A stretch of DNA of 61,958 nt, taken from positions 1 through 61,958 of the forward strand of contig NZ_AMZN01000047.1 of NCBI RefSeq assembly GCF_000331535.1, read 5' to 3'. Shown piece by piece: positions 129 to 17,566 of this stretch. A model generated the notes under the pieces. That model had not been told where the DNA came from. It worked only from the letters and a program-made list of their open reading frames with translations, and made no database searches. Every line of letters starts with the position of its first letter. The first letter of the stretch is position 1. The stretch comes from Fulvivirga imtechensis AK7 (GTDB taxonomy: Bacteria > Bacteroidota > Bacteroidia > Cytophagales > Cyclobacteriaceae). The position numbers were made by a program, and so were the translations under genes.

Positions 129-136
129 AACCCACA

Positions 137-848: not shown

Positions 849-872
849 TTGGTACGTGAGGACACGTACCAA
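849..872 (+). repeat. REP-like hairpin, right copy 2
   Basis: Third identical palindrome, arms at 849-858 and 863-872 around AGGA, 19 bp after the preceding copy in direct orientation. Confidence 0.85.
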
Positions 873-888
873 GGGAGAGACACACAGA

Positions 889-920
889 AAAAGGGCTGCA
901 ACTTTCGTTGCAGCCCTTTT
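889..920 (-). terminator. Intrinsic terminator of secDF, symmetrical
   Basis: A perfect 14-bp stem (889-902 with 907-920), loop of 4, with A and T runs on the outer sides, so it can stop transcription from either strand. It lies 23 bp beyond the secDF stop codon. Confidence 0.85.
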
Positions 921-942
921 TAATATTTAAGATAAGAATAGT

Positions 943-3900: not shown

Positions 3901-4002
3901 ATCTTGCTGTATACCGCGTGCCACAAAGGTGAACGACAGATAGTAGATGCAAAGCAATGTAATGATGATTGTTAAAAAAACAACCGCACCTTTATTTCGC
4001 AT
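943..4002 (-). CDS. secDF: Protein translocase SecDF, fused
   Basis: Inner-membrane subunit that uses the proton gradient to help the Sec machinery release exported proteins. SecD and SecF are fused in one 1019-residue chain, as is common in Bacteroidota. Visible motifs: first membrane segment at about 6-28, the SecD box GLDLQGG at 84-90, the SecD membrane motif GMSIDANVLIFERIREE, the SecF box GVDFKGG, and the SecF motif GYSINDTVVVFDRIREY. A strongly acidic, probably disordered stretch (about residues 275-325, rich in E, D, S) interrupts the SecD periplasmic part; I cannot tell if it is usual for the lineage. It is the last gene of a minus-strand run and is followed by a strong terminator. 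Confidence 0.97.
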   Translation of the reverse strand: MRNKGAVVFLTIIITLLCIYYLSFTFVARGIQQDAIKFATSETGVIDLQKKQAYLDSIYNLPVYNLFGAEYTYKEVKDTELSLGLDLQGGMQVTLEVSPVDIIKGLSGNSQDADFQKALEMAKVKQKTSQTRFGELFHQSYQEVTDKPLAGIFATAANRGRISRSDSDQAVMDIINKEIEDAIERSFIILRTRIDQFGTSQPNIQRLPGTGRIQIEIPGADNPERVRKLLQGVAKLEFWEVAELNEINNSLMAINDMLVKEQQAARKLKGSDLKTEVESEQGVPQDQEEDLADALSGEDSEVDTTDGDLDAALGSDAADGDRLDSLMNDNVSPLFALTKAGGGLVYDVRDTAVIGKILRRSEVRSLLSRTVKPLWDVKPTVNEQTGEELLQLYFVRTGRGGNAKLTGEVITDARQDLDQFSRPAVSMQMNALGTRVWAKMTADAANQTPKGRIAIVLDNLIYSAPYVNGEIPNGSSQISGNFTIEEAKDLANILKAGSLPAPTRIVEEAIVGPTLGKVAQNQGIISIVSGLVVVVLFMVAYYAKGGIVANIALVFNIFFILGILAQFNASLTLPGIAGIVLTIGMSIDANVLIFERIREELRNGVKLRAAVTDGYKKAFSSIVDANVTTFLTAVILYVLGQGPVKGFAITLMIGIACSFFTAVYITRVIVEWMVRKGDETKVSFSTPFSSNLLSNLNIDFMGRRRMAYMISGIVIVIGLALVAIQGLNMGVDFKGGRSYIVNFQNPVVATDMKLALGKVFEGAGTEVKNYDGNNNIKVTTSYMVDDESDTADDEVKNALISGIESFTGQKYVSTASQMGAEHFTISGSSKVGATIADDIKTASMEAGIFSVVVIFLYILIRFRKWQFSTGAIVAVVHDTLFVFSAFAIAGLLGINFEIDQVFVAALLTIIGYSINDTVVVFDRIREYLNLGTSSDKIKIFNSAINTTLNRTMMTSLTTMIVVLILFIFGGEVLRGFSFALLIGILVGTYSSIFIASPVVIDLDKKKPISESEKKKAVVA

Positions 4003-4104
4003 TTTGAATAAAAATTTAAGTTAAAGTCTTTAGAATTAGTTTTGTATTGGCATACACCTATACACTGGGTGATAAAAGTAACTTCCCGGAGTAAAAAGGA
4101 AATA

Positions 4105-4467
4105 TTAGGGAGCGTTCGGTGCTATGATCAACCGAAAGAGTGTCTTAAAGTAGGCATTGAAATCGACTTCCTGGTCAATAGCAATCTCTACTTCGTCTGT
4201 GTTTTCTAAATAGATCTCAGCAATAAAGTGCAGGGCATGTGAAATCGTGTATTGCACTACAGAGGCCACCGCATCTTTGCTGATCGTGAGTACGTCATGC
4301 TTTGGCTCTCCTTTCTGATCGTTTACCTCGGTGTTCACCTTGGCTTCTTCATTAGCAAGAAAGTTGTAATAGCATGACTGGGATACCAAAATAACCACAG
4401 CGGCTAATATGCCAAAGCATATACCTATGGTCTGCTTATATCTTGATATTTTCCCTAGCTTTTTCAT
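4105..4467 (-). CDS. Small single-pass membrane protein, unknown function
   Basis: About 120 residues from the ATG at 4467 (MKKLGKISRY); an upstream GTG at 4497 would add ten residues and is less likely. A hydrophobic segment (about residues 13-31, ending near SQSCYY) anchors an acidic extracytoplasmic tail that includes EIYLENTDEVEIAIDQEVDF. I recognise no domain. It starts soon after udk ends, so it is probably co-transcribed with the nrnA-to-udk run, and it lies about 100 bp upstream of secDF. Confidence 0.7.
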   Translation of the reverse strand: MKKLGKISRYKQTIGICFGILAAVVILVSQSCYYNFLANEEAKVNTEVNDQKGEPKHDVLTISKDAVASVVQYTISHALHFIAEIYLENTDEVEIAIDQEVDFNAYFKTLFRLIIAPNAP

Positions 4468-4518
4468 TTCAGAGCCTACAAAAGTAGCGATAATCACCTA
4501 CAAAACAAGAAATGAACT

Positions 4519-5136
4519 TTATTTATTAATCTTAGATTTAAGGAAGCCGCAAAGTACATCCAAAGCGGTATGAAAGCTTCTGTTATTCGGGATCACCATG
4601 TCTGCCTCGTCCTTCAGTGGCTCAAGATAGCGCTCATAGGTAGGCATTACATGTTTTTCAAACCGGTATAGGGTGTCTTCAAGGTCATAGCCCCGCTCAA
4701 TCTGGTCTCTTACTATTCTCCTCTTAAGCTTAATATGGTTTTTGGCAGAAATAAATAATTTTAAATCTAGCAGATCGCTGATCTCAGGAAAGTGCATTAC
4801 AAACAGGCCTTCTATCACCACAATAGGCGCTGGATTGAAATGGAGCATTTTTGGCACCAGATCGGCATTTTCAAAAGTATATTCCAACCGTGAGAACGCC
4901 TGGCCGTTTTTGATCTTTTTCACGTCATCGGCAAAAGCTGCAGCATCTATGGATTGTGGTGTATCAAAATTCTTGATCCCATTTTCATCCAGTATCTGCT
5001 GCTCCAGCGGCAGGTAATAATTATCCTGCGAAATAAGGCAAATATCTTTAGGGTTGAAATGGTCGAGCAGGCTTTTTAAAAAAGTTGTTTTGCCGGAAGC
5101 GCTGCCTCCTGTAATTCCAATAACAAATGGATTCAC
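4519..5136 (-). CDS. udk: Uridine kinase
   Basis: Phosphorylates uridine and cytidine to UMP and CMP in pyrimidine salvage, in the cytoplasm. The 205-residue protein opens with a P-loop (GITGGSASGKTT, about residues 7-18), followed by SQDNYY and FDTPQSID, and the lid-like RRIVRDQIERG, in the order of the uridine kinase/phosphoribulokinase fold. Length fits the family. Its stop is 3 bp past the rdgB stop's side of the run (gene spacing of 3 bp), so it is part of a tight operon. The uracil phosphoribosyltransferase upp at 37.2 kb serves the same salvage pathway. Confidence 0.93.
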   Translation of the reverse strand: MNPFVIGITGGSASGKTTFLKSLLDHFNPKDICLISQDNYYLPLEQQILDENGIKNFDTPQSIDAAAFADDVKKIKNGQAFSRLEYTFENADLVPKMLHFNPAPIVVIEGLFVMHFPEISDLLDLKLFISAKNHIKLKRRIVRDQIERGYDLEDTLYRFEKHVMPTYERYLEPLKDEADMVIPNNRSFHTALDVLCGFLKSKINK

Positions 5137-5139
5137 GAT

Positions 5140-5724
5140 TTAACTCTTATAATGGGTTGATATATAGTCGACCAATTTCCTGACGGCAATACCGCGATGG
5201 CTGATCTCATTTTTTTCGGCCATGGTCATCTGGGCGAAGGTTTTGTCATAACCCTCGGGTTTAAATACCGGATCATAGCCGAAGCCATCACCTCCTGCTT
5301 TTTCCCGGATGACCTCTCCTTTCACTACGCCTTCAAACTGTTTTATGTTGCCCTCTGCTATAAGAGTGATCACTGTTCTGAACTGAGCGCCCCTGTTGTC
5401 AAAGGATTCCAGCTTTTTGAGCAGCAGTGAAATATTGTCTTCATTATTTCTTCCCTCTCCGGCATATCGTGCTGAATACACCCCCGGCTCTCCGTCAAGG
5501 GCAAATACCTCGAGGCCCGTATCATCAGCAAAGCAGGGAATATTATATTTTTGGAAGACGTATTCTGCCTTTTGGTGTGAATTGCCCTCTAATGTCAGTT
5601 GATCCTCCCGTAACTCTTCAGTACAGCCTATTTCCTGAAGGCTAACCAAGGTTAAGCCTTCAGGCAACAACTGTTGTATTTCATTAAGTTTATTGACATT
5701 GTTAGTGGCAAAACAGATCTTCAT
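5140..5724 (-). CDS. rdgB: RdgB/HAM1 family non-canonical purine NTP pyrophosphatase
   Basis: House-cleaning enzyme that hydrolyses dITP, ITP and XTP to monophosphates and keeps damaged bases out of nucleic acid. Family motifs are all present in 194 residues: the N-terminal FATNNVNKLNEI (substrate grip), ADDTGLEVFALDGEPGVYSARYAG in the centre, GFGYDPVF and the C-terminal EKNEISHRG. It starts 9 bp after the second FKBP gene on the complementary run and is separated from udk by 3 bp. Confidence 0.95.
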   Translation of the reverse strand: MKICFATNNVNKLNEIQQLLPEGLTLVSLQEIGCTEELREDQLTLEGNSHQKAEYVFQKYNIPCFADDTGLEVFALDGEPGVYSARYAGEGRNNEDNISLLLKKLESFDNRGAQFRTVITLIAEGNIKQFEGVVKGEVIREKAGGDGFGYDPVFKPEGYDKTFAQMTMAEKNEISHRGIAVRKLVDYISTHYKS

Positions 5725-5732
5725 TATTGCTA

Positions 5733-6593
5733 CTATTTTACCTCTATGAGGTCCACTTCAAACATAAGATTTGAATTAGGAGGTATGCTTTGCCCCGAGC
5801 CCGTTTTTCCATAGCCAAAAGGTGATGGTAAATACATGGTAACCGAACCACCCTCTTTGACTAAAGGTAAGATTACCTGCCAGCCGCCTATAAGGCCTCT
5901 CAGTGAGAAGGTTTTGTTGGTTCCTGAATCGAAATTCACCTTGCTTCCAAGCAGACGCCCATGATAGTTTACCGTCACATTATTTTCGTATTTCGGGCTA
6001 TCTCCTGAGCCCTGATCAAGAATATATCTGATACCACTAGGGTGTTTGGTGGCTGTTATTCCCCAGGCATCAAGTGAGTCATCAATGATAGCAATGTCCT
6101 TTTTCAACTGCCTGGAGTGGATCTCTACCAGTTCCACTTCAATGATAAGTGTAGCATTGGCAGGTACATTCCCTGTACCGCCCTGACCGTAGGCATAAAA
6201 AGAAGGCACGTAAGCTGTGGCTGTGCCACCTTCCTGAATTTTCAGAAGAGGGAGCTGGATACCCGCTATTAAAGAGCCCCATGATCTTTTTACACTGCTC
6301 TCACTACCTACCACGGTTCCATTCGCAAGTAATTTTTCGGTGTAGCTGATTGTGACCGAATCCAGAATATAGGGCATTAAGCCTTCTCCCTGATCTTCTA
6401 TTACATATCTTATACCTGTTTGCTCATCCGTATTTGCCTGAATGCCATTTTCCGAAAGGTAAGCATCAATATCCTTCAGTTCCTTAAAATATTGATCCTG
6501 CTCATTAAAAGCATTGTCATCGGAATTACATCCTAACAGAAAAAATACGGAGCCAAGCGCTATGACAAGTAATAATTGCTTAATTGTTTTCAT
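5733..6593 (-). CDS. FKBP-type peptidyl-prolyl isomerase lipoprotein, two domains
   Basis: A lipobox LLGC puts Cys22 at the mature N terminus, so the protein is a membrane-anchored prolyl isomerase of the cell envelope. Two FKBP-like units follow: about residues 55-157 (with ILDSVTISYTEKL and VPANATLIIEVELVEI) and about 175-285 (VTVNYHGRLLGSKVNFDSG, GGWQVILPLVKEGG, PPNSNLMFEVDLIEVK). The second is the better conserved. The gene overlaps the upstream FKBP gene by 14 bp, which points to translational coupling. In gliding Bacteroidota similar lipoproteins (GldI) support motility; no such role can be deduced here. Confidence 0.9.
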   Translation of the reverse strand: MKTIKQLLLVIALGSVFFLLGCNSDDNAFNEQDQYFKELKDIDAYLSENGIQANTDEQTGIRYVIEDQGEGLMPYILDSVTISYTEKLLANGTVVGSESSVKRSWGSLIAGIQLPLLKIQEGGTATAYVPSFYAYGQGGTGNVPANATLIIEVELVEIHSRQLKKDIAIIDDSLDAWGITATKHPSGIRYILDQGSGDSPKYENNVTVNYHGRLLGSKVNFDSGTNKTFSLRGLIGGWQVILPLVKEGGSVTMYLPSPFGYGKTGSGQSIPPNSNLMFEVDLIEVK

Positions 6594-7533
6594 CTTTTAC
6601 AACATCCACCAACTCCACATCAAATACAAGAATAGAATTAGGCACGATCTCAGCGCTTCTCTGACGAGGTCCATATGCCAAGGGTGAAGGAATATACAAA
6701 GTAGCTTTACCGCCTTCTTTTAAAAGGGGAATACCTTCATCCCAGCCTCTGATCATCTGCCCTTGACCTAGTTTGAATTCAAGTGGTTCATAAGGCTCTC
6801 TTCTTTCATCATAAATATCCTCCTTCTGAGCCACCTCTTTGTAGCTGGTGTCGAAGTATGGGCCGTTAAGTATTCTTCCTACGTAGTTTACTTTTACCAT
6901 ATCACCTGCAGCAGCCTGCTCGCCAGTGCCTTCTTTCTCCATGGTATAAAATATACCAGATTCTGTTTTCTGAGCTTCAATGCCATTTTCCTTCAGGTAC
7001 TCTTCAATGATAGCTACATCTTCAGTCAGTTGTTTGGTAGCATCAGCCTCTTGTTTTTGTTGTTGCTTCTTCATCATTTCCTGCTGCCACGCCATTATTT
7101 CATCCTGGTTGAGCACGTCAGCTACCCCCAGGTTAAAAGTAAGCGTGCTTTCCTTGTTTACATTTGGAGGCAGATCAGCTTTCACGGAATTGGCGAAAAA
7201 ATCTTCAACACTAATGCTAAAAGTGACACTGTCTCCTTTTTTTAGTTCATTGAAAATTTGCTCAATACTTCCCTCATTGGCTTTCCATACGGAATCGTTT
7301 TTGGGTACTATTACCGGAATACCATTATCGGCGGTATTCATCCATACAGAGTCGGTTTCATCTTTATATTGCATGTTCATTAATATGTACTGGCCATCTT
7401 CCACAGGTCCACCCTCACCTTCTTTTATCATGGTATAAGCAAGGCCTGATTCTGTTTTGCGCTCCTTGCTGCCGCACGATTGCAAAACTGCCACTATAGC
7501 TATTGCAACAAAAATTCTTAATGTGTTGATCAT
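6580..7533 (-). CDS. FKBP-type peptidyl-prolyl isomerase lipoprotein
   Basis: Lipobox LQSC gives a mature Cys20. The C-terminal half (about 190-315) is a canonical FKBP domain: VKVNYVGRILNGPYFDTS, GQGQMIRGWDEGIPLLKEGGKATLYIPSPLAYG, then VPNSILVFDVELVDV. The N-terminal half (about 28-150) keeps the FKBP beginning and end but is degenerate, and a Lys/Gln-rich helix (MMKKQQQKQEA) links the halves. The ATG directly follows the nrnA stop codon with no gap. It was probably duplicated to give the downstream 286-residue paralogue. Confidence 0.9.
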   Translation of the reverse strand: MINTLRIFVAIAIVAVLQSCGSKERKTESGLAYTMIKEGEGGPVEDGQYILMNMQYKDETDSVWMNTADNGIPVIVPKNDSVWKANEGSIEQIFNELKKGDSVTFSISVEDFFANSVKADLPPNVNKESTLTFNLGVADVLNQDEIMAWQQEMMKKQQQKQEADATKQLTEDVAIIEEYLKENGIEAQKTESGIFYTMEKEGTGEQAAAGDMVKVNYVGRILNGPYFDTSYKEVAQKEDIYDERREPYEPLEFKLGQGQMIRGWDEGIPLLKEGGKATLYIPSPLAYGPRQRSAEIVPNSILVFDVELVDVVKDENN

Positions 7534-8580
7534 TTATGCGTAGGTTTTAATTTTCGTACTTAATTCACTTTTATATTCTTTGAGAACACTCTCAAATTTA
7601 TTTACTGTTTCCTCCAGGGTCGTGTCTGATTTACCTCCGGCTGCATTTTTATGTCCCCCTCCCTCAAAATGTTTTTTGGCAAATTCATTCACTGAAAAAT
7701 CACCAATAGAGCGGAACGACATCTTCACGGATTCCGTGCGGTCTATGATCACCGCTGCAAATTTTATTCCCTCTATTGACAAAGCATAGTTCACTAACCC
7801 TTCAGTGTCACCGGTTTTAGAGTTAAACCTCTTGAGTTCTTCTGCAGATATAGCAAAATAAGCAGTATTATAATCCTCCAGTACTTTTAGCTTTTCATTC
7901 AGAGCAAAGCCTAGGAATTTCACCTTATCTAATGAGTTGGTGTCGTACACCAGCTTAGATACTTTTGCCGTATCAGCTCCGAGGGTTGTGAGTTCAGCAC
8001 ATACCATAAATACATTACGTGTGGTGTTGGGGTGCTTAAAGCTGCCTGTATCGGTCATTATTCCCGCATAAAGGCTCTCTGCAATATCTTTATCGATCAG
8101 ATTTTTGTCACCCAGATCCACGATCAGGTCATACACCAGTTCGGCTGTAGCCGCTGCGCCGGTACTCCAATAAATGAAATCAGCAAAGTCTTCCGGCTCA
8201 AGATGATGGTCTATCAGCACTTTAGTGCACTCGGTATTTCTCACCATCTCTCCCAGTTCATTGATCCGGTTCAGGCTTGAAAAATCAAGGCAGAAGATCA
8301 TATCTGCATTATTTACAAGTCCTTCGGATTTATCTTCATTCCCCTCGTTGAAAATGATCACTTCATCATTTCCCTTCATCCACGCAAGGAAATTGGGATA
8401 ATCAGTTGGGGTTATGACTGCCACATCGTGCCCTTTTTTCTTCAAATAACCCGCCAGCCCCAGCGAGGATCCCAAAGCATCGGCATCCGGCTTGTGGTGA
8501 GTTGTGATCACCACTTTTTTAGGACTACTGATGAGCGTTTTAAAAGCTTCCAGATTCTGCATTCCTTCATTAACTGCCAC
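7534..8580 (-). CDS. nrnA: DHH/DHHA1 nanoRNase/pAp phosphatase (NrnA-like)
   Basis: Degrades 2-5 nt RNA and dephosphorylates pAp in the cytoplasm, replacing Orn oligoribonuclease in many bacteria. In 348 residues: the metal-binding HHKPDAD (28-34), CLDFSS near 97-102, the DHH motif at 124-126, and the C-terminal DHHA1 signature GGGHKNAAGG. Length is typical. It is the first gene of the minus-strand run nrnA-FKBP-FKBP-rdgB-udk and diverges from ndk. Confidence 0.92.
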   Translation of the reverse strand: MAVNEGMQNLEAFKTLISSPKKVVITTHHKPDADALGSSLGLAGYLKKKGHDVAVITPTDYPNFLAWMKGNDEVIIFNEGNEDKSEGLVNNADMIFCLDFSSLNRINELGEMVRNTECTKVLIDHHLEPEDFADFIYWSTGAAATAELVYDLIVDLGDKNLIDKDIAESLYAGIMTDTGSFKHPNTTRNVFMVCAELTTLGADTAKVSKLVYDTNSLDKVKFLGFALNEKLKVLEDYNTAYFAISAEELKRFNSKTGDTEGLVNYALSIEGIKFAAVIIDRTESVKMSFRSIGDFSVNEFAKKHFEGGGHKNAAGGKSDTTLEETVNKFESVLKEYKSELSTKIKTYA

Positions 8581-8718
8581 CCTCTGTAAGGGAGGCTTCC
8601 GTTTTTAATAAACGGCAAAATTGATAATAAAATATATCAAATACAAAAGCGGGGTGTCAGATTATCTGTATGCATAACATTTACCACGGCCTGATCCATT
8701 AATTAAGAAATATTCTTC

Positions 8719-8726
8719 TATTTTTG
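8719..8726 (+). promoter_or_regulatory. Putative -7 promoter element for ndk
   Basis: TATTTTTG matches the Bacteroidota -7 consensus TAnnTTTG, 27 bp before the ndk ATG. I see no clear TTTG at the expected -33 position. Confidence 0.45.
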
Positions 8727-8753
8727 CGGAAAATTCAAAAAACGCAATAAATT

Positions 8754-9173
8754 ATGGCTGGAAACAGAACCTTCACAATGATAAAACCTGATGCCGTAGG
8801 TGCCGGAAATACGGGCGCTATCATAAAAATGATAGAAGAAGCAGGTTTTAAAATTGTAGCAATGAAAAAAACCTATATGTCTAAAGAAAGAGCAGGACAG
8901 TTTTATGCTGTTCATAAAGAACGCCCTTTCTATCAGGATCTTACTAACTATATGTCATCAGGACCGATTGTGCCTATGATCCTGGAAAAAGACAATGCTG
9001 TTGAAGATTTCAGGAAGCTGATCGGGGCCACTAACCCTCAGGATGCCGCAGAGGGCACTATCAGAAAACTTTTTGCAAAATCTATTGAGGCTAATGCCAT
9101 CCACGGCTCTGATTCTGATGAGAATGCAGAGATCGAAGGCAGATTTTTCTTCGCTGACGTAGAAAAATTCTAA
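8754..9173 (+). CDS. ndk: Nucleoside diphosphate kinase
   Basis: Transfers the gamma phosphate from ATP to other NDPs through a phospho-histidine. The 139-residue sequence has MIKPDAV with K11, and the active-site NAIHGSDS with H117; lengths and spacings match bacterial Ndk. It stands alone on the plus strand between the divergent nrnA run and a convergent lipoprotein gene, with palindromic repeats beyond its stop that could end transcription. Confidence 0.97.
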
Positions 9174-9183
9174 GAAGCTTCTA

Positions 9184-9244
9184 TTAAGGTATCATCTCGA
9201 CCTCAGGGAAACTTCCTTTGGCCGAAATGATATCTTTACCTTAA
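9184..9244. repeat. Palindromic intergenic repeat between convergent genes
   Basis: Outer arms TTAAGGTA (9184-9191) and TACCTTAA (9237-9244) enclose imperfect arms (ATCATCTCG and CGAAATGAT) and an AGGGAA/TTCCTTT centre. It resembles intergenic palindromes often seen in Bacteroidota genomes and may act as a two-way terminator for ndk and the convergent lipoprotein gene. Confidence 0.55.
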
Positions 9245-9246
9245 CT

Positions 9247-9303
9247 GCTAATTAGTGTCTCTAAGAAAACGCCACTTAGAGTTTTCTACAAACACTAATT
9301 AGC
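9247..9303. repeat. 57-bp palindromic element, short form
   Basis: Perfect 12-bp terminal inverted repeats GCTAATTAGTGT (9247-9258) and ACACTAATTAGC (9292-9303). The interior carries CTCTAAGAAAAC and CTTAGAGTTTTC arms. Its reverse complement matches both ends of a longer element at 29498-29685, which has an extra 132-bp insert. The right end supplies the last codons and stop of the lipoprotein gene at 9295. Confidence 0.75.
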
Positions 9304-10374
9304 ACGTAAGATCGTCACCCTCAATACATTCTCCTTCTCATCAAAAACCTGGTGCAGGTTTTCCGGCTTCAGCTCAAAGGGTTTAATACCTACGTAATCC
9401 GCAATTTTAGCATCCAGCCATACCGACTTATCGAGCCATACCTTGTTGGGTTGAGGCGTGGGATCTCCATAAGCAATATTCGGTTCCGGATCAGGGTCTC
9501 CATAAAAGATCATGTCCAAATCGAATCCATTACCGGAAAAAATGTATGTACCATACTTCTTGTTTGAGTAATTTGGCTCAATATACCTTCTTTCTATCTC
9601 GGTTTCTACCACAACCGAATTGACCTGCTCTTCCAATTGAAACTGAGCAAACATTTCGTTCAGCGAGCCTTTAAAATATTCAGGAATGATCTTAGCCACT
9701 GGATTTTCATACTTTAAAGGAAACTTCATGACTGAGGTAAAGGCATTGAAAGTGCCATTCTTTTCATTATACACAACAGGATATACACCCGCAGGAATAG
9801 CATTTCCATTGAGCTCATAATCTTTCACACTCTCCTCGTCCAGGAGCATAGTAGTGCGAAGATGCAGATTTCCCTTAGACACCATATGCGACCATTCTTT
9901 GTAAAACTGAACGCCCAGCACATCGGCATTTACCGGGAAATAAGCTGCCGTGCTTGAAGGATCGATCTGTATCTGGGCAGCATCGCGTAATGAACCAAAT
10001 AATTCAGGATTGATATGAAATTTTTCATATATGATCCACGGATCTCTCCACTCGATACCACAAGGCACGATAGCACATGGGTCTAGCCACGGGATACACT
10101 TTTCATAATAAGTATTACATGCCCCCCATTGGTTAACACATTCTATGTGTAAAGGGCCTCTGACAATACGCCCGGGGTCTACCACCGGAAAACATATCCC
10201 CCTTCCAAATCTGGTATCATCTGAGCCTTTGATTACCTGGTGCGTTTCCTGGCTCACCGGTTTATCTCCTGGCCGGTCGAACACCTCCTCCTGACATGCA
10301 TTCATAAAGAGAACAAGCACTGCCATAACAAAGCCTGGCAAATAATTCAGCGATCTTTTATTTCGTTTTTTCAT
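9295..10374 (-). CDS. Cys-rich lipoprotein of the CHAT operon, unknown function
   Basis: A 359-residue lipoprotein (lipobox MNAC, Cys27). The first third of the mature part is rich in Cys (GICFPVV, HIECVNQWGACNTYYEKCIPWLDPCAIVPCG), which suggests disulfides outside the cytoplasm. The rest has aromatic-rich strands, including two copies of the phrase YGDP-x-P-x-PN. I recognise no named domain. It is the last gene of the minus-strand CHAT/lipoprotein run, 86 bp after the CHAT stop, and its last codons lie inside the palindromic repeat at 9247-9303. Confidence 0.75.
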   Translation of the reverse strand: MKKRNKRSLNYLPGFVMAVLVLFMNACQEEVFDRPGDKPVSQETHQVIKGSDDTRFGRGICFPVVDPGRIVRGPLHIECVNQWGACNTYYEKCIPWLDPCAIVPCGIEWRDPWIIYEKFHINPELFGSLRDAAQIQIDPSSTAAYFPVNADVLGVQFYKEWSHMVSKGNLHLRTTMLLDEESVKDYELNGNAIPAGVYPVVYNEKNGTFNAFTSVMKFPLKYENPVAKIIPEYFKGSLNEMFAQFQLEEQVNSVVVETEIERRYIEPNYSNKKYGTYIFSGNGFDLDMIFYGDPDPEPNIAYGDPTPQPNKVWLDKSVWLDAKIADYVGIKPFELKPENLHQVFDEKENVLRVTILRAN

Positions 10375-10459
10375 AATAAATTGGTTTTAGCGTTTATGAT
10401 TAGTGTAACGGCAGTGCACTTCGTTACCGCATTCCAACTGTTTTTGAAAAAAGAAAATG

Positions 10460-11161
10460 CTATGCTCTGCGATATCTTCGAAAAGCCATTGTTGCTATAA
10501 GTACCAGGGCCAGAAGTGCTATTATAAGGAATGTGTAGGTAGGATAATGCTTTTCTACAACGGGTGTAGGGTCTCCCATCAGCGTAAAGCCAGACCAGTA
10601 GTATGGGTGTGCGAAGTATTTATTCTGCGGGTCTTTAATAAAAGAAAGTTTGGCCTGCCGGAGGGCTTCATCTTTGCGCATGCCTTCACTTAAATTAAAA
10701 AAGAAATTCTCCATAATACCCGCTGATGACCTGTCATTCACTGACCATAAGCTCATGGTTACACTCGGACATCCTGCAAATTGAAATGCTCTGCCGAGGC
10801 TCATGATCCCTTCTCCCCTGGCGTACCTGCCAATACCCGTCTCACACGCGCTTAACACCACCAGGTTAGCCTTCAGCGGCATGTTGTAGAGCTCATATAG
10901 ATGTAAAATATTATCGTTGCCGTAATTTTCCTCACCGGTACTGACCTCAGTGCCTGCAAAGTAGAAGGCCGAAGAATTTGGGTTCAAATCGTCAACACGG
11001 GCGTGCATTGACAGATGCAAAATGGCGGCCTCAGCCGCATTGTCGCGAAAGCTATTTTCAGTGGCTGACTGATTTAAAAAATATCTTGCCTCCAAAGTAC
11101 GCATAAGCCTGCTTAACCTCCTGGTCATTAAACTTAAGCTTTGAAAGAAAAGACCTGTCAT
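10460..11161 (-). CDS. C-terminal part of TPR-CHAT protein (frameshifted)
   Basis: This frame holds the catalytic half of a CHAT (caspase-like) peptidase domain: ILHLSMHA with the candidate His, VVLSACETG with the candidate Cys, and GEGIMSLGRAFQFAGCPSVTMSLWSVND, followed by a C-terminal membrane helix (FLIIALLALVLIATMAF) and a basic tail. The real continuation starts near 11081, where the upstream frame (11058-13451) runs into stop codons; the residues upstream of that here are out-of-frame. Joining the frames at the A6 run (11076-11081) gives a 996-residue protein with H816 and C869. The 233-residue ORF by itself is unlikely to be a natural start. Confidence 0.75.
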   Translation of the reverse strand: MTGLFFQSLSLMTRRLSRLMRTLEARYFLNQSATENSFRDNAAEAAILHLSMHARVDDLNPNSSAFYFAGTEVSTGEENYGNDNILHLYELYNMPLKANLVVLSACETGIGRYARGEGIMSLGRAFQFAGCPSVTMSLWSVNDRSSAGIMENFFFNLSEGMRKDEALRQAKLSFIKDPQNKYFAHPYYWSGFTLMGDPTPVVEKHYPTYTFLIIALLALVLIATMAFRRYRRA

Positions 11162-13451
11162 TCATGGCAAGTAGGCCCTCACTATATTCGGGAGCAAAAC
11201 CCATGTAGTCATTACTGCCTTTACTCCTGGTCATGTTTTCCTTCTCCTTCATCAAAGACACAGAATAGTCATAACCAACACTATATTTATTTAAAAGCAT
11301 AACAGGCTGGGTTCCTTCTTTATCCACATTTTCGGATTCCACGAGCGTCTCAAAAGGAAAATAGCCAAGTAAGCCGTCACTAATCAGGAGCAATCGCCCA
11401 CCTAAAGCTGGCAATACCTCCTTTAAGGGTTCAATCAGTGTTTGGTACAATCCATGACTAACTTTCAGGTAATGCTGATAAGCCGAATCAGCAGTAGGTG
11501 GATTTTTAAGTTCATTCAATGCGACTAAAAGTTGCTGATCCAGGGTCTTATTGGACATCTTCCTTAATATCGATTTATCCCTGGATATACCGAAAACGTA
11601 CAGGTCGTTATCCCCATAAAAATATTCGATTACCGTCTCATCAGGTTCCAATCCATTTTGTAGCTGATCCGTACTTAATGTTGAAGATTTGTATTTCAAC
11701 CGATGATATTCCGGATACATTGCTTCAAGTGTTTCAATAAGTGCATGGTATCTTTCACGGGCTTGTAGTAGTTGGTGTTGCCTTTCTTTTCTCACCGCAG
11801 ATTCATTGCTTAACTCCAACAGGCTTTGTTGCCAGTAATAAATTCGGCCCTTCAGTTGGTTTTCTTCATGAATAAGCGCATCAGGAACACCTGCAAAAAG
11901 TTTTGATGACATGTCTCTTACCGCCTCTATTAACTGGCTGGCCCGGCTTTTTTCGGAAAAATAAAATGCCTTTTCCAGATAAAGGGGATCAGAGGTGATT
12001 TCATAAGCCTCAAAAGTGGCTTGAAGTCCACGTTCGAAGGTGGATAGCGTTACCGAGGCAAGGAACTGCTTGGATTCCGCACTTTGAAAACCCATTCTGA
12101 TATGGTCAATGAGCCGGACTGCTTGTTCATACGACTCTATGGATGCAAGCAGATACTTTGGCTCACCCTCATTAACATACCAATCATAGAAACTGTCTGC
12201 CTTTAGAAGGATCACTTTCAGAAATTCACTCTCGAGCGTCTCCGTACCTATCTGTGGTGTTTCATAGATACCTACGCTTTCTGTGCTTCCTGCCAGATAC
12301 TGCAGAGCATCTTGATAAGCTGTCAGCGCTTTCTCCCACTTTTTTTGTAGCATAAACACATTACCTTTTTCATATGAAGCACGGGCTTTAAATCTATTGC
12401 CTCCGTCAACCCCCTTTCCGGCTAATAATTGTCCCTTTTCAATGTATTTCAGTGCTGCGTCTGTGTTATTCATTTTTAAATAGATGCTGGCTGTCTCAAA
12501 CAGAAGCTTCATCTGCTGCTCAGGGTCAGCCTGTTTACTCAATTTCAAACCTTTTTCCAGAGCAGACAATGCACGCTCGTAACTACCTAGACCCATGTAT
12601 GCATCTGCCAGTTGCGTATATATCTTCAGATATAGATTATGAGCCCCCGGGGTGTTTTCTTTGCCATTTAATTTTGTCAGTGAATTCTTAAGAATCGTTA
12701 TTACATCATGATATACCTCGGCTTCTTGTAGTATGGTATTTTGATGGTATAATATCTTAGCCTGTACGGACTCAATAAATGCCAATTGATAGCTATGATC
12801 CCGTACAGAATTATAACTGGGATTAAATCCGGGAAGTACATGACGTGCCATCACAACGTATTGTAAAGCATTTTGATAGTCGCCATCCATAATGGAGAGC
12901 TGACATATATTTACCAGGCTATTAAAGGTTTGTAGAGAATCAGAAATTACCAATACGCCATTATCAAAAACTGTCTGTTTGAAGTTACCAAGTGCATTTG
13001 AAAAATCACCCTGGTAGTAGTAGTACATACCTCTCATGTACGAGACCTCCCGCACCAATTCGTTACCCAGGATGGTGCTATCCCCTGCATTTTGATAATG
13101 ATACACGATACTATCCGCTTCGTCCAGGTAAGAATTCAACGAATCGATCATGAAATGATGCTCAGCTACATAGGCCTTATTAATTAATGCGAACAGATAC
13201 CCCCTCTCCCAATCATTTTCATAGGCCTCTTTTAAAAAAAAATTTAGATAGTAAAGTGCACTATCAGGATTTTCAAAATAATGCCGATCCATCATGGCAT
13301 TCACATCATCAATAAATGTGTTCTCATCTGAATAATCCTGAGCGTTGACGCCTAATGATGAGATAAATATTAAAAAGACAAAAAGTCCGTACTGCACGGA
13401 CTTTTTGTAGATATCATATCCACATTTAACTGATTTGACATTGAAAATCAT
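11058..13451 (-). CDS. Secreted TPR-CHAT domain protein, N-terminal part (frameshift near its end)
   Basis: Reads as a signal peptide (YGLFVFLIFISSLGVNAQ), a long run of tetratricopeptide repeats (about 60-450), a helical linker, then the start of a CHAT domain (DETVIEYFYGDNDLYVFGIS, LLLISDGLLGYFPFETL). Frame is lost at an A6 run (11076-11081; T6 in the coding strand): removing one T gives KIFLNQSATEN and restores the domain. CHAT proteins are caspase-related proteases, with TPRs usually sensing a partner. The signal peptide and C-terminal anchor place this one at the periplasmic face. Its ATG overlaps the stop of the upstream lipoprotein gene by 1 nt. A perfect terminator-like hairpin lies in its signal-peptide codons. 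Confidence 0.85.
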   Translation of the reverse strand: MIFNVKSVKCGYDIYKKSVQYGLFVFLIFISSLGVNAQDYSDENTFIDDVNAMMDRHYFENPDSALYYLNFFLKEAYENDWERGYLFALINKAYVAEHHFMIDSLNSYLDEADSIVYHYQNAGDSTILGNELVREVSYMRGMYYYYQGDFSNALGNFKQTVFDNGVLVISDSLQTFNSLVNICQLSIMDGDYQNALQYVVMARHVLPGFNPSYNSVRDHSYQLAFIESVQAKILYHQNTILQEAEVYHDVITILKNSLTKLNGKENTPGAHNLYLKIYTQLADAYMGLGSYERALSALEKGLKLSKQADPEQQMKLLFETASIYLKMNNTDAALKYIEKGQLLAGKGVDGGNRFKARASYEKGNVFMLQKKWEKALTAYQDALQYLAGSTESVGIYETPQIGTETLESEFLKVILLKADSFYDWYVNEGEPKYLLASIESYEQAVRLIDHIRMGFQSAESKQFLASVTLSTFERGLQATFEAYEITSDPLYLEKAFYFSEKSRASQLIEAVRDMSSKLFAGVPDALIHEENQLKGRIYYWQQSLLELSNESAVRKERQHQLLQARERYHALIETLEAMYPEYHRLKYKSSTLSTDQLQNGLEPDETVIEYFYGDNDLYVFGISRDKSILRKMSNKTLDQQLLVALNELKNPPTADSAYQHYLKVSHGLYQTLIEPLKEVLPALGGRLLLISDGLLGYFPFETLVESENVDKEGTQPVMLLNKYSVGYDYSVSLMKEKENMTRSKGSNDYMGFAPEYSEGLLAMNDRSFLSKLKFNDQEVKQAYAYFGGKIFFKSVSH
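13378..13408 (-). terminator. Terminator-like hairpin inside the 5' end of the CHAT gene
   Basis: On the minus strand a perfect 13-bp stem (13408-13396 with 13390-13378) with a 5-nt loop GCAGT is followed by CTTTTTAATATTT. It begins 43 nt into the CHAT reading frame, within the signal-peptide codons. It could terminate transcription after the upstream lipoprotein gene unless ribosomes cover it. Confidence 0.6.
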
Positions 13452-14044
13452 TATTTTTTTACAATAAAGTGGCCTTTTGGAAAAGGATCGGTCTGCATGT
13501 TCAGTGTTTTTATCTGCTCTTTTTCATCAGTAATAAAAGCCTTGAAATCAATTACCAACTCCTGTTCAGCAAGATGAGGATTAACCACCTCATATTTAAA
13601 GGTGGCTTCCTGCCTTTCTTTATCATATTTTTCCAGTACTCCTTTTGCAAATATATCATCGCCATTGCTTCGAGTTGCGGCTAAAGTTTGCATACTCCTT
13701 ATGGCACTCGTGGATTCTGCCGGATATGTAGTAAAATATATGATCCTCAATATCCGTACATCAACTGGAGGAATACATCCCTGAATGATCCCACAAATAC
13801 GTCCTCCTCTTCCTACACTTAGCAAGGCCGTGACCAGTTCATGATTGCCACAATACTTTTCACACTGCGAATCGCTTGAGCATTCACAATACCTATCACC
13901 ATTCAAATCGCACGCTTTAGCATCTTCTTGTGATCTACAGGTGTGCACAAAATAATTTGTAGTGGTGGGTTCTGCCGGTTCACAGCCACTAAGGGCAACG
14001 ATCGCAATAAATATTAAAACTAGTTGGTTTAGCTTGGTTTGCAT
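13451..14044 (-). CDS. Small Cys-rich lipoprotein, unknown function
   Basis: 197 residues with lipobox LSGC (Cys21). The mature N terminus has nine or so Cys within 70 residues (HTCRSQEDAKACDLNGDRYCECSSD onward), including a DLNGD stretch like a calcium-binding loop; this suggests a disulfide-stabilised head. The C-terminal half reads as a beta-sandwich-like domain (EATFKYEVVNPHLAEQELVIDFKAF). No named family recognised. The stop overlaps the CHAT start (TAATG), so the two are likely translationally coupled. Confidence 0.75.
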   Translation of the reverse strand: MQTKLNQLVLIFIAIVALSGCEPAEPTTTNYFVHTCRSQEDAKACDLNGDRYCECSSDSQCEKYCGNHELVTALLSVGRGGRICGIIQGCIPPVDVRILRIIYFTTYPAESTSAIRSMQTLAATRSNGDDIFAKGVLEKYDKERQEATFKYEVVNPHLAEQELVIDFKAFITDEKEQIKTLNMQTDPFPKGHFIVKK

Positions 14045-14123
14045 CGGTTGGTTTATTAATGGTTAATTTAATATTTAAAAATAGTAACTCTTTGGTTAAA
14101 GCAAATACTTCCACAGGAACTAT

Positions 14124-15107
14124 TTATTGCTTCTCATCCGGGTACAGGCTATAAAACGGCTTCATTTTCTCTTCATAACTCTTCGCGTGCCATATTTCCC
14201 AGGCCTCTTTTGATGAAGGCCGTGCTTTCCTGTCTGATGCAGCAGACCTTTCAACGTTAATATAGAGCACGGGCCTTAGCGATGCCTGTGACATTTCGCT
14301 GGAATAAATTATCACCTGAGCTTCTCCGGCAAATACTGCCAGGCGGAGGCCTTTATTCATTCCCTCTTCACAGAGCCACTTTTCAATGATTTCCCGTGGT
14401 ATAAAAACAGGCAAAGGTCGCATAGACCTTATATCGTTGCTTGTTTGAAGATTAACGGGATAGCCCATATTTACCAGGCCCTTTAACTCAAAGTAAGGAT
14501 CATTTACCGCCCATGTTTCCTCTCCGCCCGCACGACCCCATTCTTCACTGTTGTTAGCAGCTATCCAAGTAACTTCTGTTTCGTTAAATAATGGCGAATC
14601 ATCACCATAAATACCCACTTGAAGAAGCGCTTCACTTGCTCCAAGAGTAAGATATAATCCGTTAATAAAAAGTGTAGCGTCATTAATGTATAACTGACCT
14701 GAGCAGACGCCTGCCCCCAACTCTTCTTCAATTACTTCAGCCAACCCATCAAATCTCAATACAGCGGTAGCGCTGTCTACTTGCGTTGGGTCTGCTCCGT
14801 TTTCCTGTGTAACAGCATAAATAAACTCCCCTCCAGGTGTCGGAGGACTCGAAAAAATATCTATTGTGTTATACAAAGTAGCATCAGTAGTACCGTTATA
14901 CCCTTTATATCCATTCTGGAAGTAGAAAGACGCTGTGTTGGCGTCTTTTCCATCCGTTCCTGGTGTTCCAGGTTCTCCTTGCTCCCCTTGTTCCCCCTGC
15001 AATCCTTGCTCACCCTGAGTGCCCTGAGGCCCCGGATCGCCTTTGTCACCTTCGCATGCCATCATGGGCATTACCCCGATCAATAATATTATAAGTATAC
15101 TTTTCAT
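14124..15107 (-). CDS. Collagen-like lipoprotein with a DNRLRE-like domain
   Basis: Lipobox MMAC (Cys18) is followed at once by about 12 Gly-X-Y triplets (residues 20-55), the signature of bacterial collagen-like stalks. The remainder (about 57-295) resembles a DNRLRE-type stalk/adhesin domain: LRFDGLAE, LYINDATLFINGLYL, VTWIAANNSEEWG and a RPVLYINVE end strand; this assignment is tentative. A surface-exposed, elongated lipoprotein is the simplest reading. It sits between two Cys-rich lipoproteins of the same run. Confidence 0.8.
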   Translation of the reverse strand: MKSILIILLIGVMPMMACEGDKGDPGPQGTQGEQGLQGEQGEQGEPGTPGTDGKDANTASFYFQNGYKGYNGTTDATLYNTIDIFSSPPTPGGEFIYAVTQENGADPTQVDSATAVLRFDGLAEVIEEELGAGVCSGQLYINDATLFINGLYLTLGASEALLQVGIYGDDSPLFNETEVTWIAANNSEEWGRAGGEETWAVNDPYFELKGLVNMGYPVNLQTSNDIRSMRPLPVFIPREIIEKWLCEEGMNKGLRLAVFAGEAQVIIYSSEMSQASLRPVLYINVERSAASDRKARPSSKEAWEIWHAKSYEEKMKPFYSLYPDEKQ

Positions 15108-15137
15108 TTTTAAAAAATGTTTATTGTAATTTTTCTT

Positions 15138-15956
15138 TTACTCACAAGAATCCTCATACTCAACGGTAAGGATAAGGTCCCCACTGCCACCGATCAGTAC
15201 CGAGGTAATGTCTTCGGTGACTCCCAGAGACTGAATATGTTGATTGAACAACGTCTCTACTATCACTCTGTTATTCATAAAATAGGCGGCTACCTGCTGT
15301 TCTATTTGTTCTTTGGCCTGGTTTTCCCGGTTGGGAGCTAAGAGGTCGCAAGCAAAGGCGCAGGCATTGTCATGGCAGGGGCCCTCTTCTTCAAAAGTTG
15401 ATGACATCTTCACCACGGTTTCAGTGATGGTTAACCTCCCTGCCCTGGTGCCAAACGACAACAACACATCAAGCTTCATGTCGTTTAAGTGAACACGCGG
15501 GTCGCCACAAAAACAAAAGGCATTGTTAACACAGTTGCCGATCACCTCATGTCCTTCATCCTCGAGATCAATGGTAATCAGAGCCTTTCCTCCACGTGTA
15601 CCCGGGGTAAAGCTCACAGAATTAACATCGTTGATATAGAGGGAGTAAGGATCCTGCCGCTGAACTGGGATATCAAAAACAAGGTTCACTCCCAGCGCCT
15701 CAAGGCGAAAGAAACTGTCATCCGGTTTGTAGAATGCTCTTTCATCCGATGGATCAAATTCATGATCGTTAGGCGTGTAGTTATTCAGTCTTAGGTCAAT
15801 CTCAGCAAACAAACCGTTGAGCATACCGATCCACTCCGACTCCGGCAGTGTACGAACCTCCCGGCGCACGCCATCTGAACAGCAGGCCGACAAGTATAAA
15901 CTTCCCACAGTAATTAAAGCCACTATAGAACAATGGGTAAATCTAATTTTAAACAT
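15138..15956 (-). CDS. Cys-rich lipoprotein, first gene of the CHAT operon
   Basis: 272 residues with lipobox LSAC (Cys25) followed by a second Cys. Later Cys clusters (CVNNAFCFCGD and GPCHDNACAFACD) echo those of the neighbouring lipoproteins. Between them are strands such as YSLYINDVNSVSFTPG and GRLTITETVVKM. No domain recognised. As the promoter-proximal gene of the minus-strand run it diverges from the ECF sigma gene over a 283-bp gap, which makes it a natural target of that sigma factor. Confidence 0.75.
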   Translation of the reverse strand: MFKIRFTHCSIVALITVGSLYLSACCSDGVRREVRTLPESEWIGMLNGLFAEIDLRLNNYTPNDHEFDPSDERAFYKPDDSFFRLEALGVNLVFDIPVQRQDPYSLYINDVNSVSFTPGTRGGKALITIDLEDEGHEVIGNCVNNAFCFCGDPRVHLNDMKLDVLLSFGTRAGRLTITETVVKMSSTFEEEGPCHDNACAFACDLLAPNRENQAKEQIEQQVAAYFMNNRVIVETLFNQHIQSLGVTEDITSVLIGGSGDLILTVEYEDSCE

Positions 15957-16239
15957 TTCCTTCTTTTTGCCTTGGTGACCACTGTTATCAGGAGGTTACC
16001 GGCAAATCGGAAAAAAATTTTTATACAAATCCTGATATTATTAATGTGTAAGAAAAAGGATTTTTATTGTCAGATTGGGATGTCAGACATTATCTAAAGT
16101 CATAAAATCCAAAAATTCAGTATTTTAGCATCACAAAAATGGGAATGGGTAATTTACCCCTTTTCAGCCATCAAAAGATTGTCTATCTTGGCCGGTTAAT
16201 AGAAAACGGTAACCTTTTGGCGCCAGCCTACACTAACGA
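15957..16239. promoter_or_regulatory. Divergent control region between the lipoprotein/CHAT run and the ECF sigma gene
   Basis: 283 bp, AT-rich, no gene. Contains an A/T block near 16012-16023, TATTTTAG (one mismatch to TAnnTTTG) near 16121-16128, and a perfect palindrome at 16147-16159. Expected to hold promoters for both directions, but I cannot fix them. Confidence 0.4.
16147..16159. promoter_or_regulatory. Short palindrome upstream of the ECF sigma gene
   Basis: GGGTAA-T-TTACCC, perfect 6-bp arms, 81 bp before the sigma ATG. A possible operator or part of a promoter; no further evidence. Confidence 0.3.
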
Positions 16240-16818
16240 ATGGAAGACGTACAAAGACATGGTATTGCGGTAGACGATGCGCTTCAGCAGGTCAGACAGG
16301 GAGACGATCACTTCCTGCGACAGCTTTATGAAACCAACCGAACAAGGTTCATCAAGTGGTTTCAGCAGCATCATCGTATCACTGAAAATGAAGCCATTGA
16401 TTTGTATCAAAAGACATTCACCATTTTCTATTTTAATGTGAAAGATGGCAAAATCACAACGCTGAAAAGCAATATCAGCACCTATCTTTTCGGGATAGGC
16501 AAAAACCTTGTAAGGGAGCTATTCAGGCAACAAAAGCAACAAGTGCAGCTTGACGATGTGTCTGAAATAGAGACTGCCAGCTATGAATTTTTAACATTAG
16601 AGGAAGAAGCCCATCAACAGGGACTGGTCAAAAAGATACTGGATAAACTGGAAGAACCATGTAAGTCCATCCTGCTGATGTATTATTTTAAGAACTTCTC
16701 TATGGAAAGTATTGCTACCAACCTTGGTTATAAAAATGAAGGCGTGGCGAAAAAGAAAAAATGTCTTTGCCTGAAGAAGATCAGAGAAGAACTGCTGGAG
16801 TACCAAAACGATTTGTAA
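16240..16818 (+). CDS. ECF-type RNA polymerase sigma factor
   Basis: 192 residues with a sigma-2-like region (about 20-95, EAIDLYQKTFTIFYFN being the core contact helix) and a sigma-4 helix-turn-helix region (about 130-185: LEEPCKSILLMYYFKNFSMESIATNLGYKNEGVAKKKK). The arrangement is that of extracytoplasmic-function sigma factors. The stop is followed one base later by the ATG of a membrane protein with the expected layout of its anti-sigma partner. It diverges from the lipoprotein/CHAT run, which is therefore the most likely regulon member. Confidence 0.9.
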   Translation: MEDVQRHGIAVDDALQQVRQGDDHFLRQLYETNRTRFIKWFQQHHRITENEAIDLYQKTFTIFYFNVKDGKITTLKSNISTYLFGIGKNLVRELFRQQKQQVQLDDVSEIETASYEFLTLEEEAHQQGLVKKILDKLEEPCKSILLMYYFKNFSMESIATNLGYKNEGVAKKKKCLCLKKIREELLEYQNDL

Positions 16819-16819
16819 A

Positions 16820-17566
16820 ATGGAGCAGGAAGAAAAAGATATTGAACTGATAGAGGCTTACCATCAGGGAACGCTTAGCGAAGATGAGATTGCTGCGTTT
16901 GAAAAGAGAAGAGCTGAAGACGAAGACTTCGATCGTAAGGTGGAGGACTACGTACATATCATGAGCGAGATCCGCACATTTGGCGAACGTGATTTCATGA
17001 AAAAGCTGCACTCCTGGGAAAAAGATATTGCCGGTGAAAAAGAGGCAAAGGTGATCCCTCTAAAAACAATATTGTCAATAGCCGCTGCTATCATTATCAT
17101 CTTGATCCCCATAGGATATTTACTCATGTCTGATCAGACACAACAAGGGCCACAGGAACTCTATACAGCTTATTTCAAGCCCTATGAGGATGTTATATCA
17201 GAGAGATCCGAGAGTTCAGGATTATTAGAACAAGGGTTAAGTGCTTATAATCAGGAAAACTACAGGCAGGCCATTACTTATTTAGAAGGTTTTGTGAAAG
17301 AAAACCCGGAGAACAACGGGAGTAAAACCTACCTCGGCATTGCCTACCTGGCCTCAAATGAACCTGAAAAGGCAGAAAGCATATTAAAAGACGTTACGCA
17401 AAATGCATCGGGTTTATTTAAAGAAGTATCGGAATGGTATCTGGCGCTGGCATATCTGGATCTGAACCAAAAAAACCGGGCAAAAGACCAGTTTAACAAC
17501 ATCACCTCGCAGCCTGACCACATGTACTACAGCAAAGCAAAAGAACTATTGCAGAAAATCGATTAG
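16820..17566 (+). CDS. Membrane TPR protein, probable anti-sigma factor
   Basis: 248 residues: an acidic, helical cytoplasmic N terminus (about 1-75, including LIEAYHQGTLSEDEIAAFEKR, a pattern seen in Bacteroidota anti-sigma factors), one membrane helix at about 82-103, and an extracytoplasmic C terminus with tetratricopeptide-like repeats (about 128-245: GLSAYNQENYRQAITYLEGF, YLGIAYLASNEPEKAESIL). The design (sigma-binding inside, sensing outside) and its position directly after the sigma gene support an anti-sigma role; there is no direct proof. The TPR part could bind the CHAT protein or an envelope ligand. Confidence 0.75.
   Translation: MEQEEKDIELIEAYHQGTLSEDEIAAFEKRRAEDEDFDRKVEDYVHIMSEIRTFGERDFMKKLHSWEKDIAGEKEAKVIPLKTILSIAAAIIIILIPIGYLLMSDQTQQGPQELYTAYFKPYEDVISERSESSGLLEQGLSAYNQENYRQAITYLEGFVKENPENNGSKTYLGIAYLASNEPEKAESILKDVTQNASGLFKEVSEWYLALAYLDLNQKNRAKDQFNNITSQPDHMYYSKAKELLQKID

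Follow-up and report, generated by a model that had tools for sequence, protein, structure and literature searches.

The subject of this study is a gene cluster at positions 9295 to 17566 of a contig of Fulvivirga imtechensis AK7 (NZ_AMZN01000047.1, positions 1 to 61,958 of the forward strand; this whole stretch of 61,958 nucleotides (nt) is called the window in the following). In this cluster, the genes for an extracytoplasmic function (ECF) sigma factor and an anti-sigma-like membrane protein with tetratricopeptide repeats (TPRs) are located divergently to the genes of several lipoproteins and of a TPR-CHAT protease with a C-terminal membrane anchor. Apart from the TPR-CHAT gene, which is frameshifted in this assembly, the genes of this module are real and correctly placed, and the module is co-conserved beyond chance. 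By computation we found a conserved gene block, an association of the membrane anchor on CHAT proteins with neighbouring sigma factor genes, a conserved arginine in the anti-sigma protein, and shared promoter elements. The conserved arginine would fit a cutting of the anti-sigma protein by the CHAT protease, and we lean towards a two-protein envelope switch in which the anchored periplasmic protease would cut the anti-sigma protein, RseP would follow and the sigma factor would amplify its own cassette.

Membrane-anchored CHAT proteins and sigma factor genes

The protease gene of the window lies on the minus strand and is read in two parts. The first part (797 amino acids (aa); 11058–13451) has a signal-peptide-like start, TPRs and the beginning of the CHAT domain; the second part (233 aa; 10460–11161), in another frame, carries the catalytic His and Cys as well as a C-terminal membrane helix and matches the CHAT model PF12770 with E=2.9e-44. 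The His-Cys dyad (codons at 11003–11005 and 10844–10846, respectively) is invariant in our CHAT alignment A1, and the catalytic Cys is kept in 123 out of 123 anchored CHAT proteins, the set used for the comparison of active sites. The exported TPR-CHAT protein with a C-terminal anchor that had been read from the sequence alone is thus not a single reading frame here, its parts being distributed over two.

We surveyed all 45 CHAT genes of seven genomes, for which up to about 10 kb were read per side where the contigs allow it. An ECF-type sigma factor gene was located within 7 kb of 12 out of 16 anchored CHAT genes, versus one out of 29 unanchored ones (p=7e-7). These numbers were obtained with a membrane-helix cut-off that had been relaxed after the first count, as one protein (L092; G and L codes are our genome and locus labels) has an obvious anchor just below the first cut-off; with the earlier, stricter cut-off the numbers were 11 of 15 and 2 of 30 (p=8e-6). 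The difference persisted when relatives were collapsed into groups at 45% identity (7/9 anchored versus 0/10 unanchored groups near a sigma gene, p=7e-4), at 40% (3/4 versus 0/10, p=0.011) and at 35% (2/2 versus 0/9, p=0.018). Sigma factor genes are common, with 36–71 model matches per genome; therefore a sigma gene will sometimes lie nearby by chance, though this applies to anchored and unanchored CHAT proteins alike. Furthermore, anchored CHAT proteins and TPR anti-sigma proteins rise together over the seven genomes (4/3, 5/4, 5/4, 1/1, 1/1, 0/0 and 0/0; the TPR anti-sigma proteins were tallied by hand after exclusion of nine matches whose E value was 1e-4 or worse). In genome G003 the sole anchored CHAT (L104) is found apart from the sole TPR anti-sigma match (L120), which has no CHAT beside it, an arrangement that fits a pair working in trans.

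A scan of named genomes, for which the query pattern was taken from anchored CHAT proteins and which is thus no measure of how common the module is, gave at least 80 CHAT loci, all from Bacteroidota save one record titled 'bacterium'. Flavobacteriaceae, Saprospiraceae, Chitinophagales and Bacteroidales are among the taxa of the matches listed, and for 35 of 80 loci among these matches the fetched DNA includes a sigma gene.

A conserved arginine in the loop of the anti-sigma protein

The sigma factor gene of the window (16240–16818, plus strand; 192 aa) matches TIGR02937 with 51.8 bits (cut-off 42.9) and is directly followed by the anti-sigma-like gene (16820–17566, plus strand; 248 aa), coding for a helical N-terminus, one membrane helix (aa ~84–102), a loop and TPRs. 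The divergent pair of an ECF sigma factor and a membrane protein with TPRs, as the sequence-only reading had it, was thereby confirmed. In our first set of loci, a same-strand protein is encoded next downstream of 53 out of 54 sigma genes, and among these 53 proteins 51 have a membrane-helix-like stretch and 48 a length of 200–300 aa. In the AlphaFold (AF2) model of the window anti-sigma protein (mean predicted local distance difference test score, pLDDT, 85), three helices are followed by the membrane helix, and aa 119–134 form a non-helical loop between a helix at aa 111–118 and the TPR helices from aa 135 onwards.

Alignment A4, made with MAFFT, comprises 38 of the 53 downstream anti-sigma-like proteins (without L040, L082, L089, L092, L116, L121, L124, L126 (twice) and L132–L137). 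The columns conserved at 90% or more are, in window numbering, two Ala in the membrane helix, Y14, R129, A185 and Y207. R129 (codon at 17204–17206, plus strand), the proposed cut site, is located shortly after the membrane helix, in the loop predicted to be periplasmic, and is present in 37 of the 38 proteins, with the rest of the loop being variable.

For a count beyond A4, an Arg followed by Ser, Gly, Asp, Thr or Asn was sought at residues 11–42 after the membrane helix, and the expectation was derived from composition. In the first set, such an Arg occurs in 34 out of 39 proteins encoded near a CHAT gene (8.6 expected) and in 7 out of 11 without one near (2.4 expected); in the named-genome set, which had been sought by CHAT alone, it occurs in 30 out of 33 (5.0 expected), so that loci from other Bacteroidota share it as well. 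For any loop Arg the corresponding values are 38/39 (24.0 expected), 7/11 (5.4) and 32/33 (15.5). The named set holds one duplicate locus (L198) and two proteins from other anti-sigma families (L211, L274). Where the helix was usable, the count also includes loci of other families or with unanchored CHAT (L126, L116, L040, L133–L137, L211, L274), all of which were excluded from the GTAAC promoter survey below.

Two cases in which the Arg is absent may be mentioned. The anti-sigma homologue L121 of genome G027 has no loop Arg, and both CHAT proteins found in this genome are without an anchor. Within A4 only L084 lacks the Arg, and its partner CHAT protein is unique among the 123 at positions 851, 858 and 890, all of them conserved positions in the active-site region; this is a post hoc link from one case.

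A cassette present or absent as a whole

Orthologs of the sigma factor at 56% identity or more were found in 5 out of 15 Fulvivirga genomes (G000–G014, G000 being that of the window), with 78–81% identity in G014, G001 and G008 and 56% in G004. In the window, G014 and G008 the cluster sits between ndk and an aldehyde dehydrogenase gene. These two flanks are on two contigs in G001, and in G004 the contig reaches the aldehyde dehydrogenase side only. In the ten genomes without the cluster, ndk adjoins the aldehyde dehydrogenase gene directly (eight genomes) or with one gene between (two genomes). From these flanks and empty sites it follows that the genes for sigma factor, anti-sigma protein, CHAT protease and the last lipoprotein are acquired or lost together, as one discrete cassette.

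The set of three Cys-containing lipoprotein-like proteins and a collagen-like one, noticed earlier on the minus strand, is borne out by the reading frames, with lipoboxes of the Cys-containing proteins assigned by eye. Next to the sigma gene lie a Cys-rich lipoprotein of 272 aa (15138–15956) and a lipoprotein of 327 aa (14124–15107), whose short collagen-like stretch scores 25.2 bits with the Pfam Collagen model, below its cut-off of 27.2; neither has a relative among the 452 open reading frames (ORFs) searched. They are followed by a Cys-rich lipoprotein of 197 aa (13451–14044), which has relatives at the corresponding position of G014 and G008, and, beyond the protease gene, by the last, Cys-containing lipoprotein of 359 aa (9295–10374), which is found in all five orthologous loci (the copy in G001 was recognised by eye). 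We also considered all of these lipoproteins as conserved parts of the system and rejected this, since none but the last is common to the five loci, and different genes fill the slot beside the sigma gene: the Cys-rich and collagen-like lipoproteins in the window and a papain-like lipoprotein in G008 (PF00112, E=5.5e-11) and, by sequence, likewise in G004 and G001; G014 has no more than a frame of 60 aa there. Of the co-conservation of sigma, CHAT and lipoprotein genes that the sequence-only reading relied on, the block of sigma, anti-sigma and CHAT genes stood, but the lipoproteins beyond the last one are not fixed.

Shared promoter elements

The predicted promoters of the lipoprotein gene starting at 15956 and of the sigma gene itself share a bipartite element that is conserved in the orthologous loci. 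The sigma gene is preceded by GGTAACC-N16-CACTAA (16208–16236, plus strand, no mismatch), beginning exactly 32 nt before its ATG in five out of five orthologous loci. The element of the lipoprotein/CHAT operon is GGTAACC-N16-CACCAA (15972–16000, minus strand), exact in the window, G008, G004 and G001; the best match on this side in G014 differs at two positions, and about 205 nt separate it from the next lipoprotein gene. A third element, GGTAACG-N16-CACTAA with one mismatch, precedes the last lipoprotein gene (10400–10428, minus strand), and GTAACC-N16-CACYAA is at the same place in G014, G008, G004 and G001.

With up to two mismatches allowed, the window contains only these three cassette sites, and 1.96 are expected; hence it is their positions and not their number that are remarkable. 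Genome-wide, exact GTAACC-N16-CAC(T/C)AA occurs 8, 5, 5, 5 and 6 times in G000, G014, G008, G004 and G001, respectively, versus 4, 1, 2, 1 and 1 occurrences of the reversed pattern. In three genomes without this sigma factor there are 2, 1 and 1 exact sites versus 4, 3 and 1 reversed ones. The cassette sites stand out, but single distant sites may be due to chance. In the five loci the ATG comes 4 nt after the end of the -10-like part of the sigma element, and this arrangement suggests either a leaderless sigma mRNA or a wrongly annotated, later start.

Among the 70 rows surveyed, no GTAAC promoter common to all sigma/CHAT loci was found. GTAAC exactly 31 nt before the start was also observed at the sigma genes of L250, L236 (Aquimarina) and L257 (Saprospiraceae), amounting to 8 of 88 upstream stretches when the five Fulvivirga loci are included. 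Elsewhere, the element is located 44 nt upstream of a gene for a lipoprotein-like protein, whose fn3 match is weak and below the cut-off, in two genomes (L283, 9277–10494, in G014; L140, on contig C172 of G001) and, in the genome of the window, 56 nt upstream of a gene for an OmpA-domain protein (L285, 9677–11056, contig C6 of G000).

Lanthipeptide genes

In G000, G001, G014 and G008, a pinensin-family precursor gene beside a ferritin-like gene has the element 68–81 nt before its leader, and all four precursors score above the cut-off of NF038180. For a wider check, 30 loci were fetched of 91 NF038180 matches, and a frame was obtained for 17 of them (L181 being not clearly a leader) and none for 13. 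GTAACC-N16-CACTAA precedes 5 of the 17 frames, and two more match at 11 of 13 positions; wholesale control of pinensins by the sigma factor was rejected on this ground. NF038180 matches number 31 in the genome of the window, 14–22 in three relatives and 0–1 in the other 34 of 38 genomes searched; G004 has the sigma factor and no match. The pinensin-rich genomes are close relatives, so that this co-occurrence is weak evidence.

The window itself contains a pinensin-family lanthipeptide leader at 57679–57759 (plus strand). At another locus of an anchored CHAT and a sigma factor in this genome (L012; contig C9 of G000, 1–15657), the genes that follow code for a class I lanthipeptide-like precursor (match below the cut-off), for LanC and for a lantibiotic dehydratase.

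A proposed envelope switch and its alternatives

The CHAT domain is predicted to be periplasmic from the signal peptide and the C-terminal helix with Lys/Arg after it (judged by eye and by hydropathy), and the TPRs of the anti-sigma protein are predicted outside from the Lys/Arg before its membrane helix and the position of the TPRs behind it. With these topologies the protease and the Arg loop would face each other near the same membrane. In the switch proposed here, the TPR anti-sigma protein would bind the ECF sigma factor and hold it at the inner membrane, where the exported TPR-CHAT protease would be anchored by its C-terminus with the active site near the periplasmic loop. A signal, perhaps sensed via the TPRs of either protein or via the lipoproteins, would turn the protease on, and the activated CHAT would cut after the conserved loop Arg. 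A protease of the RseP type would then cut within the membrane and free the sigma factor, which would raise expression of the sigma/anti-sigma gene pair, of the operon with the lipoproteins and CHAT, of the last lipoprotein gene and of a pinensin-type lanthipeptide gene. The variable lipoproteins are candidate sensors or cargo. One RseP match (TIGR00054) above the cut-off was found in each of four genomes, a weak support as the family is widespread.

Several observations weigh against this reading. Four of the 16 anchored CHAT proteins have no sigma gene within 7 kb (the ortholog set L013, L052 and L102 from three Fulvivirga genomes, and L104), as have 45 of the 80 named loci among the matches listed within their fetched DNA; less than 5 kb was available on one side of the CHAT gene for 26 of these 45, and for 19 this does not apply. 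The TPR anti-sigma proteins L119, L120 and L130 keep the Arg without a CHAT gene in the 5–10 kb fetched on either side. Alignment A4 was hand-picked (38 of 53 pairs) and excludes L121, which lacks the Arg, as well as L040, L116 and other families, and all counts are inflated by shared ancestry. A passage in PMC9729208 states that Arg is read by separase via D2151, with K670 in Craspase; in a sequence alignment to Craspase, the D2151 column is mostly Ala, Pro or Ser in the anchored CHAT proteins, and a separase-type Arg pocket could not be confirmed. An acid four residues before this column is conserved in anchored and unanchored CHAT proteins alike, hence the pocket gives no specific support for cutting at Arg. 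Craspases, as stated in part of PMC11106740, cut non-conserved sites; from that family one would therefore not predict a conserved Arg.

Finally, the TPR-CHAT gene of the window is split in this assembly by a +1 frameshift near a run of six T (11076–11081, minus strand). It is the only split one among the ten CHAT genes of the genome, the other nine being intact, and the orthologous genes of two other genomes, with 49 and 48% identity over the first part, are read in one frame throughout and code for about 980 aa. Behind the shift, the differences at codon positions 1, 2 and 3 are 0.35, 0.22 and 0.61. This pattern of a protein under selection persists after the break, which thus appears to be either a recent mutation or an assembly or sequencing error. 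With the two closest orthologs each in a single frame, we regard a programmed frameshift as unlikely; the six-T run proves nothing alone, as one of the single-frame orthologs has such a run there, too.

Alternatively, the CHAT protease could be an output of the sigma factor, induced by it and processing lipoproteins or other envelope proteins, with another protease, e.g. a DegS-like one, cutting the anti-sigma protein. The location of the CHAT gene together with lipoprotein genes downstream of a shared promoter element would be natural then, and the papain-like lipoproteins in the variable slot of G008, G004 and G001 can be counted in its favour as well. It sits less well with slot lipoproteins that vary or are absent (G014) while sigma factor, anti-sigma protein and CHAT stay, with several other loci in which CHAT directly adjoins the sigma/anti-sigma pair, and with a conserved Arg in the loop of the anti-sigma protein. 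We consider it unlikely. It is also conceivable that CHAT and anti-sigma protein signal without any cutting, by contact between their TPRs, which both possess, and that the Arg in the loop serves docking or structure. Conservation of a residue does not by itself mark it as a cut site, and the acid of a separase-like Arg pocket is not at the expected place; against such a role speak the catalytic Cys, retained throughout the anchored CHAT proteins, and a loop that is otherwise variable and modelled as non-helical, so that this explanation, too, appears improbable to us.

Mere synteny or chance, in which shared ancestry would keep sigma and CHAT genes adjacent, draws on the relatedness within the ortholog sets, whose counts are not independent, and on the abundance of sigma genes. 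Yet the association is seen with different gene orders, on opposite strands and on the same strand, and in distant families, and the contrast between anchored and unanchored CHAT proteins holds inside the same genomes. We disfavour this explanation as very improbable.

Relation to known systems

In the proposed switch, TPR-CHAT control over an ECF sigma factor would take a form that is split between two proteins and anchored in the membrane. The precedent invoked in the sequence-only reading, type III-E CRISPR, was apt insofar as a TPR-CHAT protease acts there on a sigma inhibitor, but DdvA of Myxococcus xanthus is closer. With a sequence profile of the CHAT protein, DdvA was the best solved structure (E=1.4e-6), followed by Craspase at about 0.02. 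Foldseek with the CHAT model ranked Csx29/Craspase first (rmsd 12–15), DdvA at 5–6 (rmsd 29) and then separase, the superposition over the whole chain being poor.

DdvA (PDB 8rot, 8rw5) is a transmembrane anti-sigma factor by PDB title, deposited as a CHAT-domain protein. Like the window system, DdvA/DdvS combines an ECF sigma factor with a transmembrane anti-sigma protein and involves a CHAT domain; in DdvA, however, the anti-sigma and TPR-CHAT parts form one polypeptide, whereas they are encoded by separate genes in the window and the four orthologous loci. The TPR-CHAT part of DdvA is said to be periplasmic, and autoproteolysis followed by RseP has reportedly been proposed. Its active site is reportedly incomplete; the system described here consists of two proteins and has a complete His-Cys pair. 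Anti-sigma proteins of the DdvA type have zinc-binding Cys in their cytoplasmic part, for which there is no counterpart in the window anti-sigma protein, as its 248 aa include no Cys. The targets differ as well: the candidates here are lipoproteins and a lanthipeptide gene, and DdvS controls a defence island, according to a passage in PMC12288465.

In the type III-E Craspase system (Csx29/Csx30/CASP-sigma), a TPR-CHAT protease acts on the inhibitor of an ECF-like sigma factor, as described in part of PMC10028731. The theme of a TPR-CHAT protease and a sigma inhibitor is common to both, and Craspase gave the best Foldseek matches. In contrast to the window CHAT, which is predicted to be exported and membrane-anchored, Craspase is RNA-guided and bound to Cas7-11, and its sites are non-conserved, unlike the candidate site here. 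With the Csx29 family model the second CHAT part scores 18 bits against a cut-off of 300, and this weak match is the only one to Cas families among the eight cluster ORFs, the part of the window that was scanned. PADLOC on ten proteins gave one weak match only (REase_II, E=5.5e-4, within the TPR part), and a defence system by known models was dropped.

Regulated intramembrane proteolysis (RIP) of the RseA/RsiW type resembles our system in the one-helix anti-sigma protein encoded directly after the sigma gene and in the presence of RseP in the genome, but the candidate site-1 protease is CHAT and not DegS or PrsW, and there are TPRs outside the membrane. For ECF54, CHAT proteins occur in the genetic context and regulation without an anti-sigma factor is proposed (PMC8999054, in part); the CHAT neighbours are a likeness, the anti-sigma-like partner in the window system a difference. 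No paper on this gene layout was found in the searches made, which covered neither the main ECF classification nor two DdvA papers.

Implications

A portion of PMC7406223 reports that about 6% of ECF sigma factors of Bacteroidetes are near a class I anti-sigma factor, versus 32% on average. A broader view, to which we would give an even chance, is that the here described module represents a large and apparently undescribed ECF class throughout the Bacteroidota, in which an anchored, periplasmic, separase-like CHAT protein would serve as dedicated site-1 protease and cut a TPR anti-sigma protein after one conserved Arg. There would be parallel copies per genome, some working in trans, and one Fulvivirga copy would couple an envelope signal to the expression of lipoproteins and a pinensin-type lanthipeptide. 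If true, this would provide a concrete substrate and cut site for a group of CHAT proteases, and would link the CRISPR-associated Craspase, the DdvA switch of Myxococcus and ordinary envelope signalling as one theme.

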